Assembly: GCA_000496135.1 (NCBI GenBank)
Contig: KI542675.1
Span: 248,001 to 312,000, forward strand
Direction: 5' to 3'
DNA from: Thermoplasmatales archaeon E-plasma
Lineage (GTDB): Archaea; Thermoplasmatota; Thermoplasmata; Thermoplasmatales; Thermoplasmataceae
Length of the DNA stretch: 64,000 nt
Shown here: one piece after another, positions 26,355 to 29,953 of the stretch
Layout: each line of letters begins with the position of its first letter
Numbering within the stretch: the first letter of the stretch is position 1
Program-made: the position numbers and the translations under genes
Notes under the pieces: generated by a model
Told to the model about the DNA's origin: nothing
The model's input: the letters and a program-made list of their open reading frames with translations, nothing else
Database searches by the model: none

Positions 26355-26996
26355 TTGCAAATAGAATCCATAAATTATAATGGCAGATCCATAATGTCAC
26401 AGTCGAAGATAAGGAAGATCGAACAGGCTATGAACTTTTCCGGGTTTCTCAAAAAGAAATGGGTCAAGTTTATTGGGATTTCAGGATCTGTATCATATGA
26501 ACCAAAAGAGGATGATGATGTTGATGTTTTCATAATTTCTGAAAAATGTATGTTGTGGACCGTTATATTGCGGGCACTTATTGCAAGACGAATAATAAAG
26601 GACAAGGAGATTTGTCTCTCCTTATTCATGGATGCAGACTACGCAGCAGATTTTTATTCGGGGAATATGAGTCCACTGAAAAAAATGGATGCTAAAAAGG
26701 TTATACCTCTTCACGGTTCAGATTATTACCAGGAACTTTTAAACAGGATGAAATTCCATTCCAATAATGATAATAACCAGAACGCAAGTATTCTCGGGAT
26801 CATAGATTTTGCAGTCTTCTTATTTCTGGCACCTTTTTTATATATCAAAACACAAATCAATTCTCATATGGATATAATCAGAAAGGGCGAATCAGCAAAG
26901 TTTAGTCCAAGGATTTCTAGAAAATATTTTTACCTCGATTCAGAAAAGTACAGAAAGTATGAGATGGATTTCAAGGGTGACGATAGCTATGAATAG
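26355..26996 (+). CDS. Nucleotidyltransferase-fold protein with a membrane segment
   Basis: A 213-aa protein. Residues 44-57 give GS-x9-DVD (G44, S45, D55, D57), the metal-binding motif of the DNA polymerase beta-like nucleotidyltransferase superfamily. The rest of the N-terminal 130 residues is alpha/beta. A hydrophobic segment near 145-165 is followed by a basic tail, suggesting attachment to the inner membrane face. The TTG start is backed by GGGAGG 8 nt upstream; an ATG at 26394 would still keep the motif. It overlaps the glycosyltransferase gene by 8 bp. The target of any nucleotidyl transfer is unknown, and the domain could be inactive. Confidence 0.7.
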   Translation: MQIESINYNGRSIMSQSKIRKIEQAMNFSGFLKKKWVKFIGISGSVSYEPKEDDDVDVFIISEKCMLWTVILRALIARRIIKDKEICLSLFMDADYAADFYSGNMSPLKKMDAKKVIPLHGSDYYQELLNRMKFHSNNDNNQNASILGIIDFAVFLFLAPFLYIKTQINSHMDIIRKGESAKFSPRISRKYFYLDSEKYRKYEMDFKGDDSYE

Positions 26997-27858
26997 CACT
27001 GCAATCGTTTTTTCAAACAACGATCTTTCTTCAGTTCAGAGAATTTACCCTATATTGCACAAATCGGCATTAGATCAGATAATCTGGGCGGTTGACGGTG
27101 ACAGAAGTATTCCTGATTTCATACTATCTCATAACAGCAAAACCGATATAGTTTCATATTCTCAGATCAGACTGGGCAAAAGCAATGCATACAATCGTGC
27201 ACTTAAGCTAATAGAGAATGAAAACGTTTTCTTAGTTTCTGCAGATATTACATTTGATTCATCCATATTTCAAGCCATATTGGAAAGGATTGAGGATCAC
27301 GGATTGGCAATTACAAATGTTACGCAGGTAAGGCAAAACGGATTAATCAGAAAGGTTGGATGTCTTCTTTGGTGCATACGGGATATCCAGTTGAGATATT
27401 TTTCTGAAAATGGAATCCCTATCCATGGCGGGGAGTTCCTCTACATAAAGAGAAAATTTCTGGAGAGGCTCCCTGAAGTTGTAAACGATGATGCATATCA
27501 ATGCCTGATTGCTCAGAAGAATGGTGCTAAAGGTGTATACTTTGGAGATCTGGATGTTAAAAACTTTGTTCCATCAACGTTAACTGATTTGATTCAGCAG
27601 AGAAGAAGAATAAATTATGGACACATACAAATAGGGAAAAAGCTGGAAAAACCAAGCTCAGTTTCATTTATGGTGTTAAATAACACCGGAGGGACTCTGG
27701 CAATTTTCAAGAAGACTCTAAAGCGAAACAAGAGATGGGCTTTGATATTTCCAATTCTTATTCTTATTGAGATAATTGCTAAATTATCTGCTTACATAGA
27801 CGTCATGACAAGCCATGATCAGATTTTATGGAAAAATATTGAAACATCAAAATCATGA
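26989..27858 (+). CDS. Family 2-like glycosyltransferase with C-terminal anchor
   Basis: A 289-aa protein. Features of the GT-A fold are present: the nucleotide-sugar region with DGD at 36-38, a second acidic stretch SADITFD at 84-90, the likely base region NDDAY at 166-170, and an Arg-rich QQRRRINYG at 203-211 in place of QxxRW. A helix at about 249-268 should bind the membrane. ATG 26989 is chosen because GGTGA lies 8 nt upstream and the gene overlaps the nucleotidyltransferase stop by 8 bp; an earlier in-frame ATG at 26959 is less likely. Likely role: adding a sugar to a lipid or glycan. Confidence 0.78.
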   Translation: MNSTAIVFSNNDLSSVQRIYPILHKSALDQIIWAVDGDRSIPDFILSHNSKTDIVSYSQIRLGKSNAYNRALKLIENENVFLVSADITFDSSIFQAILERIEDHGLAITNVTQVRQNGLIRKVGCLLWCIRDIQLRYFSENGIPIHGGEFLYIKRKFLERLPEVVNDDAYQCLIAQKNGAKGVYFGDLDVKNFVPSTLTDLIQQRRRINYGHIQIGKKLEKPSSVSFMVLNNTGGTLAIFKKTLKRNKRWALIFPILILIEIIAKLSAYIDVMTSHDQILWKNIETSKS

Positions 27859-27871
27859 ATTCTCTTAACTG

Positions 27872-29014
27872 TCAGTTCTTATTTCTCATAAAATATAAGG
27901 TATGATCCCCCATATAATTGAATGGCCATAGTTTTGAAAAAAACATGTCCGCTTTCTTTATTCTTTCTTCATTGATTCTTCCTTTAATCATGAAGGAATA
28001 ATTGGATGGTGGTAATATAACGGGACATCCATATATCATCTCTATGTTAAATCGTTTTGAAAACAGCCTTTTCAGATATGCAGGGGAATAAGGGTATACA
28101 TCAATACAGAATCTGGAAGCCCCCTCGGGAATCTTGTTTGAAAATCTTTCAAACACTCTCCGCGGTTTCATTCCAATCATGTGTGCCGTCATTTCCAGAA
28201 TACAAAACTTATTGAAAATCCCAAGAACCACCTTTCCATGGGGTTTAACAATTTTGTGAACGCTTTCCATTATGGCATCAATGTTAGACTCGCAATTTAG
28301 TGCTCCGTAATTAGAGTATAATCCATCAAATGGTTTATTCATAAAATCCTCCTCGTGATTTACAAGATCTGATGCCTTCATAGTTATGGTTGTAAGAAGA
28401 TCACTTACTTCTGCATCAATCGCTTTCTTTCTCAATATGGTATTCATATTCTCTGATATGTCTATGGCTGTAATTTCATGACCACTTTTTAGCATTTCCA
28501 AAGTTTCAGTTCCGGTGCCCGAACCTATCTCCATGAGCCTTTGCGAAGGGGGGAAAAATGTTTTCATCAGGGAAATGGATCGTTCTCTGAGGTAGTTGTT
28601 TATCAGATTATCATATATATGATGGTCATAGTGCTGAGCAATGGAATCAAACTCGTCCTTCAACCATTCCTCATAATGATCCATATTTTTTTCATTTACT
28701 TCATTCGTTTGAGAAAGTTTAATAATTCGTGATATTTCCGCAAACCATTTATTAAATTTCAGGTCTCCATATTTTGCAATCATGGTATCCTTGATTTTTT
28801 TCTGTTGATCTGAATCTGTTACGAGCTTTGGTGTTACCAGTATATCTTCTCCCTGAAGTGAGATTCTTGCAGATCCCTGTCTTAGAACTTCCCCTGGCCA
28901 TCTATTTGAATTGCCTGAAGAAATTACATAAAATGATGAATTAATCTCAACAAATGCAAGAGGTACAGTCTTATTACCAATTTTCAGGGTCAAGTGTTCC
29001 TCATTATTTTTCAT
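27872..29014 (-). CDS. Fusion of split-barrel flavin/F420-type domain with SAM methyltransferase
   Basis: A 380-aa protein in two parts. Residues 1-90 resemble the split beta-barrel of deazaflavin/FMN-dependent nitroreductases (TVPLAFVEINSSFYVISSG, then the beta strand ARISLQGEDILV and the KYGDL end). Residues 115-380 are a class I methyltransferase with motif I LMEIGSGTGTE at 160-170 and AIDIS at 183-187 as motif II. Both halves are complete in look, so a genuine fusion rather than misreading is likely. Substrate unknown. It is convergent with the glycosyltransferase, with 13 bp between stops. The split-barrel call is the less certain part. Confidence 0.72.
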   Translation of the reverse strand: MKNNEEHLTLKIGNKTVPLAFVEINSSFYVISSGNSNRWPGEVLRQGSARISLQGEDILVTPKLVTDSDQQKKIKDTMIAKYGDLKFNKWFAEISRIIKLSQTNEVNEKNMDHYEEWLKDEFDSIAQHYDHHIYDNLINNYLRERSISLMKTFFPPSQRLMEIGSGTGTETLEMLKSGHEITAIDISENMNTILRKKAIDAEVSDLLTTITMKASDLVNHEEDFMNKPFDGLYSNYGALNCESNIDAIMESVHKIVKPHGKVVLGIFNKFCILEMTAHMIGMKPRRVFERFSNKIPEGASRFCIDVYPYSPAYLKRLFSKRFNIEMIYGCPVILPPSNYSFMIKGRINEERIKKADMFFSKLWPFNYMGDHTLYFMRNKN

Positions 29015-29075: not shown

Positions 29076-29303
29076 ATGAAATTCTATTCTGAAAAATTCT
29101 TTATAAAATACCTAATTGAAAACAATGGAATATGCCTGGGCATAGATATGAAGAACAATTCTTATTTATTTCTGGTAACAAAAAGTGGATTTATGTTGAA
29201 GAAAAGGCCCGCTGGTGATAAAATAGTTGAAAATCTAAATTATGATGTTGGGAGAGTATCTTTATTCTTGCGAAATACGGAAACTGGGAATAAACGGCAT
29301 TGA
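29076..29303 (+). CDS. Small hypothetical protein
   Basis: A 75-aa open frame in the gap between the methyltransferase fusion and the next minus-strand gene. It begins MKFYSEKFFIKYLIENN and is rich in Lys, Asn and Phe, with no motif I recognise. TATTGATTTAA-like sequence lies just upstream, but spacing is poor and there is no ribosome site. It could be a real orphan or a chance frame in AT-rich DNA. Confidence 0.32.
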   Translation: MKFYSEKFFIKYLIENNGICLGIDMKNNSYLFLVTKSGFMLKKRPAGDKIVENLNYDVGRVSLFLRNTETGNKRH

Positions 29304-29329: not shown

Positions 29330-29953
29330 TCATTTTTCAGGTTCACTCTCCCTGATCTCCTTTAAAGCTTCCCTGTCCCTGCAATACAGATATGGGGCTA
29401 AGTCCAGGGATGCAGGTGATTCTCTTAATTTCTGGCTGTATACCTTCCTCAGATTTTTGTCTACTTCCCCGCAATATCCTTTCCACGTTACTCCAAGATA
29501 CTCAACAAACTTCTTTTCAATTCCCGTGGCAACTTCATGTGCATAAGGGTATTCGAAATCATTGTCTGAAAGCCATTTTTCAGGGAGTTCATGGTGCAGG
29601 CCGATTGTGGCAGTTGTATCAATATCCTTCCCCTCAACCTTTAGAGTTTTTGGAAAATGTTCATCCAGATAGATTGTCTTGCCGTCAATTGAATAACCAC
29701 CAGTATACTTTATGTCGTGGCTGGTATCCAAAACCACATCAGACGAACTTTTTTTGATCGTAACGTATCCTATTTCCAATTTGTTTTTATATATTTTATT
29801 CCTTTCAACACTAACTGTATCTCCTTTTTTTATATCTACGGAAATTATGCCTTTTATATAAGTAGGTTTTATATATTCAATTGCTATGATTTCCTTCTGT
29901 CCCTTCTCTAAGTTGGAATTCCTGGAATGTTCTATAACCTCAAAAGTTTCCAT
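29330..29953 (-). CDS. Unknown protein with HHExxE and YAHExA motifs
   Basis: A 207-aa protein not recognised at family level. The first 80 residues are strand-rich and lysine-rich (KGDTVSVERNKIYKNK). The second half has TIGLHHELPEKWL at about 117-129, then YPYAHEVATGIEKK about ten residues on, and CGEVDK near 161. The spacing of His and Glu recalls small phage-encoded predicted metal-binding or protease-like proteins, but I cannot name one. No signal peptide. It stands alone, next to the membrane-anchored ABC operon that faces the other way. The last 30 residues are charged. Confidence 0.62.
   Translation of the reverse strand: METFEVIEHSRNSNLEKGQKEIIAIEYIKPTYIKGIISVDIKKGDTVSVERNKIYKNKLEIGYVTIKKSSSDVVLDTSHDIKYTGGYSIDGKTIYLDEHFPKTLKVEGKDIDTTATIGLHHELPEKWLSDNDFEYPYAHEVATGIEKKFVEYLGVTWKGYCGEVDKNLRKVYSQKLRESPASLDLAPYLYCRDREALKEIRESEPEK

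Follow-up and report, generated by a model that had tools for sequence, protein, structure and literature searches.

What does a protein do that joins a reductase-like barrel to a methyltransferase? The question arises from a gene in a 64,000-nucleotide stretch of the Thermoplasmatales archaeon E-plasma genome (here called the window). A sequence-only reading had noted an open reading frame whose N-terminus resembles the small beta-barrel of F420- or FMN-dependent reductases and is followed by a complete class I methyltransferase. It offered two guesses: the protein reduces and then methylates one substrate, or the barrel merely binds it. The frame is present at 27872-29014, single and with zero internal stops; that it lies on the minus strand is a detail absent from that reading.

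27872..29014, minus strand: fusion gene, split barrel and class I SAM methyltransferase, 380 aa (Pfam and AlphaFold)
27881..28684, minus strand: class I SAM methyltransferase, residues 111-378, with the conserved C-terminal cap SRFCID, PPSN, LGDH (Pfam and alignment A1)
28511..28531, minus strand: SAM-binding motif I, E162-G168 (EIGSGTG), with E162, G164, G166 and G168 identical across all 24 rows of A1

The methyltransferase is there, as claimed. Five Pfam methyltransferase models (PF13649, PF08241, PF13489, PF08242 and PF13847) and the UbiE/COQ5 model PF01209 exceed their cut-offs, with all matches inside residues 115-277. D185 is invariant alongside the four residues of motif I (24 of 24 rows of alignment A1, which comprises 24 window-type sequences, the window's included). 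The motif and the Pfam matches place the domain among class I SAM methyltransferases. An AlphaFold model of the full-length protein, built from A1, is confident (pLDDT 89.3, pTM 0.85): seven strands within residues 8-102, helices at 39-46, 68-82 and 84-90, and then the methyltransferase. Nearest in fold are Escherichia coli CmoM and TM1389, which have SAM motif I and the methyltransferase fold in common with the window protein; CmoM (8joz) gives a TM-score of 0.81 on the target. Among the 25 NCBIfam models listed, none reaches its cut-off (the best is CpaM, 50.6 of 180 bits). MenG/UbiE membership was considered and rejected: the protein passes the PF01209 UbiE/COQ5 cut-off (27.3 of 20.1 bits) but falls far under that of the NCBIfam MenG/UbiE model TIGR01934 (42.7 of 158.35 bits). 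The cap motifs SRFCID, PPSN and LGDH were traced to no named enzyme.

How widespread is this domain order? A contig scan for relatives found at least 95 stretches at no fewer than 79 distinct loci; the 79 rows examined are 78 of these loci plus the window. The barrel precedes the methyltransferase in 75 rows, whole or (at contig ends) in part, in Thermoplasmata and Thaumarchaeota/Marsarchaeota. The other four, from Anaerolineae or an uncultured bacterium, have no barrel. Recurrence of the same order in 75 of 79 rows rules out a chance juxtaposition. The sequence-only reading was right about both the identity and the order of the domains. The barrel-bearing rows fall into three groups: T1, Thermoplasmata of the window type (61 rows); A (eight rows: Thaumarchaeota, Nitrososphaerales, one Marsarchaeota and one "archaeon"); and B (six rows: Thaumarchaeota, Nitrososphaerales, one "archaeon" and one record titled "bacterium"). 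Groups A and B together are called thaumarchaeal-type. The remaining locus, L109 from Thermogymnomonas acidicola (JCM 13583, the only culture-collection strain among the loci listed), was excluded: it holds barrel and methyltransferase pieces, but in the draft assembly the gene runs over more than one reading frame (L109 7758-9020, L026), through either sequencing error or a broken gene.

Among 101 genomes, the window's own included, full-length relatives occur in 24, and the fusion was read as present in 27. In a larger sample of Thermoplasmata, 81 of 300 genomes contain a detectable barrel, and 78 of the 83 barrel matches lie in open frames of at least 300 aa (judged by frame length only, the frames not being read singly); two of the five shorter frames start near a contig end. 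A thaumarchaeal-type barrel profile matches 65 of 300 genomes of the phylum to which one thaumarchaeal carrier, L090, belongs. There, all matches except L090's own fusion fall in frames of 66-211 aa, so single-domain relatives are common in that phylum and the fusion is patchy.

What kind of barrel is it? The best 50 Foldseek matches of the whole model are methyltransferases or are led by the methyltransferase domain; because this search is silent on the barrel, a barrel-only model was built, from an alignment (A2) of 73 barrels that includes the thaumarchaeal-type rows. The model (pLDDT 86.3) has six strands where the full-length model has seven, and the strands are nearly identical in the full-length model, which was made from window-type rows alone. 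Foldseek ranks 1-9 are held by MSMEG_3358, Ddn, two Nocardia reductases, MSMEG_2850 and Rv1558 (E 1.6e-5 to 2.7e-4), all of which we take to be members of the FDOR-A group. For part of them this membership is given in the portions available of a 2021 review of F420 (PMC8498797). On the predicted model, then, residues 1-102 form a split beta-barrel of the Ddn type, though other split barrels come about equally near. Neither outcome that would have refuted the sequence-only reading of residues 1-95, a different fold or a simple lengthening of the methyltransferase, occurred. In a VIA-align comparison with Ddn (3r5r) the barrel model scores Z 13.0, with an rmsd of 2.2 over 96 aligned residues, and the heme protein HutZ ties, so the cofactor cannot be read from the fold alone.

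Sequence profiles lean towards the F420 branch. Searched against PDB sequences, the L090 barrel and the A2 all-barrel profile both reach Ddn (E 1.1e-6 and 3e-4, respectively), and F420 enzymes come first in each case. PF04075 (F420H2_quin_red), the Pfam family of Ddn/FDOR-A, is matched by 13 of 13 thaumarchaeal-type barrels at E up to 1; of the 10 full-length thaumarchaeal-type proteins scanned (from 14), six pass its cut-off and four fall below. Profile-profile comparison joins Thermoplasmata and thaumarchaeal-type barrels at 98.7% probability (E 4.3e-16). Against PDB sequences, a Thermoplasmata-only profile (A4) gives no split-barrel match with a useful E-value (best 0.32), so the sequence link from the window type to Ddn runs through the thaumarchaeal-type rows and through structure. 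By both routes the F420 branch is the closest to the barrel.

Pfam assignments within Thermoplasmata are scattered. Among 38 Thermoplasmata barrels searched at E up to 1, 14 match DUF2255, 10 Pyridox_ox_2, seven PF04075 and six PNPOx_N. Neither the window protein nor its barrel alone matches PF04075 in Pfam, and the family has no match in the window's genome (the same search matched 0 of 14 control genomes); one other fusion, in genome G034, is over the cut-off (23.6 of 22 bits). The only Pfam family to match the window barrel alone is DUF2255 (PF10012), over residues 15-85. Membership was rejected, as the match is sub-threshold (25.2 of 29.8 bits); the name was not found in the open-licence literature searched. 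Compared with Ddn/FDOR-A, then, the window barrel shares the split-barrel fold and differs in three respects: PF04075 is unmatched; it is fused to a methyltransferase, whereas the matched Ddn-type structures, 109-141 residues in chain length, have none; and its tail hairpin is deleted.

The features of the barrel are as follows.

28709..29014, minus strand: F420-type (Ddn-like) split beta-barrel, residues 1-102 (barrel-only model, Foldseek, VIA and profile-profile comparison)
28967..28972, minus strand: residues 15-16, the site at which the relatives' F420-tail hairpin (GRxTG region) has six further alignment columns, absent here (alignment)
28898..28900, minus strand: W39, aligned with Ddn W88, invariant (73 of 73 rows)
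28880..28882, minus strand: R45, present in all 60 Thermoplasmata rows and in 1 of the 13 rows of the thaumarchaeal type
28766..28774, minus strand: KYG motif, residues 81-83, where the long helix of the barrel ends (at least 90% of 73 rows)

The role of the F420-tail hairpin in Ddn, and the F420 contact residues R54, T56 and N91, are taken from the available part of PMC3267046. Thaumarchaeal-type rows retain R54, T/S56 and N91 (13 of 13 each); the position of Ddn R60 is His in all 13, and K79 has no clear equivalent in these rows by eye. In Thermoplasmata, all 60 rows have gaps in the columns of K55, T56 and G57, 59 have another residue in place of N91 (N is kept in one), and five have R in the R54 column; R38 is found in 38 of the 60. 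A census of the F420-tail motif pattern gives the same division: 8/8 in group A, 5/6 in B (the sixth is cut by a contig end), and 0/61 in T1. Hairpin residues and N91 alike are thus present in the thaumarchaeal-type relatives and lacking in the window protein.

Do the hosts make F420? The search for its biosynthesis covered CofD and CofH, for each of which 3 of 14 control genomes gave a match over the cut-off. CofD was found in 0 of the 101 genomes, and CofH over cut-off likewise in 0 of 101, both counts including the window's own genome (96.29% complete); on these two markers, F420 production by the window's host finds no support. Weaker CofH matches occur in 71 of the 101 genomes, many as strong pairs that are presumably MqnC/MqnE. 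One such divergent pair, under the CofH cut-off, lies at G000:C2:509816-512174 and probably encodes the MqnC/MqnE of the futalosine menaquinone route. Among carriers of the fusion, CofD is present in 10 of 14 of the thaumarchaeal type (nine over cut-off) and in 0 of 8 Thermoplasmata. The four thaumarchaeal-type carriers for which CofD was not found are L090, L091, L100 and L101; L090 is also the strongest PF04075 match among the 10 proteins scanned.

The two functional guesses can now be separated. Because the F420-tail hairpin is deleted and CofD and CofH stay below cut-off in all 101 genomes, mere binding by the barrel is favoured for the window protein, which is probably a methyltransferase whose ex-F420 barrel now serves to bind. 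Reduction followed by methylation remains plausible for the thaumarchaeal-type relatives, since these keep the F420-tail motif and most of their hosts have CofD. The thaumarchaeal-type protein may be an F420 reductase-methyltransferase, predicted to bind F420, and its barrel is probably a working F420H2 reductase.

Does the fusion act with a partner? A small gene diverges from it in the window.

29076..29303, plus strand: conserved small protein of 75 aa in divergent orientation, with 61 bp between it and the fusion start codon (conservation and co-occurrence)

The family measures about 75-90 aa. The window copy has no Pfam match, 12 members yielded three chance-level Pfam matches (each in one member), and the family profile found nothing among PDB sequences. 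A copy lies within 2.3 kb of the fusion gene in 57 of 79 rows: 51/61 in T1, 6/8 in A, 0/6 in B and 0/4 in the outgroup (the profile for this count was built from 15 copies, and some flanks are short). Across the 101 genomes it occurs in 25 of 27 fusion carriers and 0 of 74 others. The profiles of the small protein derive from copies beside the fusion, which match by construction. Of the two carriers without it, G028 has a fragment at a contig edge and G032 a highly divergent copy; G078, counted among the 74 non-carriers, holds a contig-edge barrel fragment. In the 300 Thermoplasmata genomes, 71 have both barrel and small protein, 10 the barrel only, nine the small protein only, and 210 neither; Fisher values for these counts ignore shared ancestry and are unfit as probabilities. 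The two lie no more than 3 kb apart in 65 of the 71.

All nine sites with the small protein only (L111-L119) were fetched. At L111, L112 and L113, a barrel-less methyltransferase and the small protein lie less than 3 kb apart. L114 has a very divergent barrel; the methyltransferases at L116 and L118 are cut by the end of the sampled stretch or contig; and on the contigs of L115, L117 and L119, each under 5 kb, no methyltransferase was found. Since L111, L112 and L113 keep the methyltransferase and the small protein without a barrel, these two components suggest themselves as the core of the system, with the barrel looking like an accessory. The small protein is likely a partner or subunit of the methyltransferase.

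Phylogeny suggests that the barrel may have been altered more than once. A tree of 87 methyltransferase domains, for which the program warns of long branches (T3 above all), recovers six groups, each on one side of a branch: T1 (60), A (8), B (6), T2 (5), T3 (4) and the outgroup (4). T2 comprises barrel-less Thermoplasmata, and T3 Thermoplasmata with a barrel that by eye is heavily degenerate. T1 and A are joined with support 97/79, and B, barrel-bearing and thaumarchaeal, is sister to barrel-less T2 with support 99/97, a parallel case to the hairpin loss. In a second tree, of 52 rows, the place of group A is not resolved, L111 and L112 join T1 (84/83), and L113 is placed, weakly supported, close to B/T2. 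Read cautiously, the trees have the F420 part abandoned twice in Thermoplasmata: the hairpin in T1 and the whole barrel in T2. Four loci (L027, L028, L029 and L030) carry a tandem pair of related methyltransferases (0.5-3.4 kb), one member T2 and barrel-less, the other T3 with a barrel remnant and a diverged methyltransferase; the two perhaps form a heterodimer.

The window barrel remains under purifying selection. Barrel dN/dS is 0.14-0.25 in eight pairs, and 0.16-0.20 in the window's three (in several pairs dS is near or above 1). For the methyltransferase it is 0.06-0.17 in the seven computable pairs. The barrel is the less constrained domain in six of the eight; one pair is reversed and one is saturated.

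A constrained barrel might still be a redox domain, working with one of the cofactors bound by other split barrels (FMN, FAD or heme), in which case the protein would reduce one substrate as well as methylate it. By fold, split barrels with heme or flavin come equally close (HutZ, Z 13.0), and the best scores among the 38 Thermoplasmata barrels do not single out F420: 1.6e-6 for PNPOx_N, 2.1e-5 for PF04075 and 3.9e-4 for Pyridox_ox_2. The invariance of W39 and R45, the frequency of R38 and the purifying selection would all fit such a role. We consider it unlikely, however: F420 enzymes are the first reached in PDB sequences by the L090 barrel and the all-barrel profile, and they hold Foldseek ranks 1-9; no flavin or heme family appears among the Pfam matches of the window protein itself; and some near relatives have no detected barrel. 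The absence of a barrel from T2, L111, L112 and L113, the heavy degeneration in T3 and the weaker constraint on the barrel in six of eight pairs would suit a functionless relic on its way to loss. This we judge distinctly improbable, given barrel dN/dS values that stay at 0.14-0.25 in all eight pairs (several with dS close to 1 or higher), the presence of W39 and R45 in every one of 60 rows, and a barrel detected in 81 of 300 Thermoplasmata genomes.

What, then, would an ex-F420 barrel help to methylate? The neighbourhood offers a clue.

26959..27858, plus strand: family 2 glycosyltransferase (GT2), convergent neighbour (PF13632 over cut-off, 29.4 of 27 bits; PF00535 below)
26355..26996, plus strand: 213-aa nucleotidyltransferase-like protein, overlapping the glycosyltransferase gene (in the same neighbour cluster, C1, as the GT2)

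The upstream protein of this overlapping pair has no Pfam family over cut-off; its motif has the look of a nucleotidyltransferase. C1 pairs of this kind (here 26355-26996 and 26959-27858) recur near the fusion at many loci. On the other side of the fusion, 29330-29953 (minus strand) encodes a 207-aa protein that, among the loci compared, is a neighbour only in the closest relatives, L031-L033.

The recurrent neighbour families scanned were C1 and C2 (GT2), C3 (GT87, matched in one of two members scanned and not in the other), C10 (group 1 glycosyltransferase), C4 (methyltransferase) and C7 (phosphoesterase). At least one of C1, C2, C3 and C10 lies within 4 kb at 29/37 T1, 4/4 A, 5/5 B and 0/4 outgroup loci (those with 4 kb on both sides); as C1 mixes GT2 with the nucleotidyltransferase-like protein, such counts are not of glycosyltransferases alone. 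Twelve loci, L109 among them, came out of ORF calling without a member of the focal cluster, likely owing to longer antisense frames in high-GC loci, so the neighbour-family counts are probably lower bounds. The joint density of the four families is 0.31 per kb at 0-2 kb and 0.039 per kb at 6-8 kb; that of other ORFs goes the opposite way, from 0.62 to 1.0; and 30 of the 31 copies of the GT2 family C2 counted in 8 kb flanks lie within 2 kb. The window's genome has 14 GT2 domains over the Pfam cut-off in 1.66 Mb, and the window's neighbour would be a fifteenth, below it. From this neighbourhood, the likely role of the methyltransferase is to methylate a glycan or glycolipid intermediate.

A quinone enzyme, in which a Ddn-like barrel binds (demethyl)menaquinone and a UbiE-like domain methylates its ring, would accord with the PF01209 match and with Ddn being termed an F420H2-dependent menaquinone reductase (in the part available of PMC8498797), but is very improbable, in that the NCBIfam MenG/UbiE score is far below cut-off, 7 of the 27 fusion genomes lack strong CofH-like matches (presumed MqnC/MqnE, the one menaquinone route that the search covered), and scanning of the recurrent neighbours brought up glycosyltransferases together with a methyltransferase and a phosphoesterase.

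The explanation that we prefer, and to which we give about an even chance, is a SAM methyltransferase with an ex-F420 barrel. Its ancestor would have been a Ddn-type F420H2-dependent reductase barrel joined to a class I methyltransferase. In Thermoplasmata, the F420-tail hairpin would have been deleted and Asn91 replaced, with the barrel, its tryptophan and a new invariant R45 retained. The barrel would now bind and present the substrate, or dock the small protein; and the methyltransferase domain would methylate a glycan or glycolipid intermediate supplied by the neighbouring glycosyltransferases. The comparisons above supply the domain identities, predicted fold, motif loss, the CofD result, selection on the barrel, co-occurrence of the small protein and the glycosyltransferase neighbourhood; from them we infer that the hairpin was lost rather than gained, that the barrel binds substrate, that the small protein is a physical partner, and what kind of substrate is methylated. 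Several considerations stand against this explanation: the case for the substrate comes from gene neighbourhood; the window's GT2 neighbour is convergent, not co-transcribed, and is below the PF00535 cut-off; C1 mixes two kinds of protein, and one of the two C3 members scanned has no glycosyltransferase match; the small protein was not found in 10 of 81 barrel genomes, nor the barrel in 9 of 80 small-protein genomes; other residues might hold F420; even in the thaumarchaeal type, R60 is His, K79 has no clear equivalent, and CofD was not found for 4 of 14 carriers; and the join of the window type to group A appears in one tree of the two.

Both domains are of known kinds; their order, spread, loss of the cofactor site and small partner are undescribed as far as we searched. 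No paper found in the open-licence literature (titles and abstract openings) names the fusion architecture. In the part available of the 2021 review (PMC8498797), the F420 split-barrel family is tabulated for Actinobacteria and Chloroflexi, with question marks for Thaumarchaeota, Methanosarcinales and Halobacteriales; the word "methyltransferase" has zero uses in its main text, to the same extent.

A broader proposal, which we put forward tentatively and would sooner bet against than for, is that in Thaumarchaeota/Marsarchaeota one polypeptide couples F420H2 hydride transfer to SAM methylation on a surface glycolipid, together with the small protein and a GT2. In Thermoplasmata, where F420 was lost, the reductase half would have been rebuilt as a cofactor-free domain for binding substrate or partner, and the methyltransferase and its partner kept. 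If true, this would be a traceable conversion of a redox domain into a binding domain. An archaeal fusion that crosses phyla, its F420 motif present where F420 genes mostly persist and deleted where none were found, lets such reuse of a redox domain be put to a direct test. It also singles out an uncharacterised family of small proteins as likely partners of the methyltransferase, and hints at a putative new methylated glycan or lipid of acidophilic archaea.
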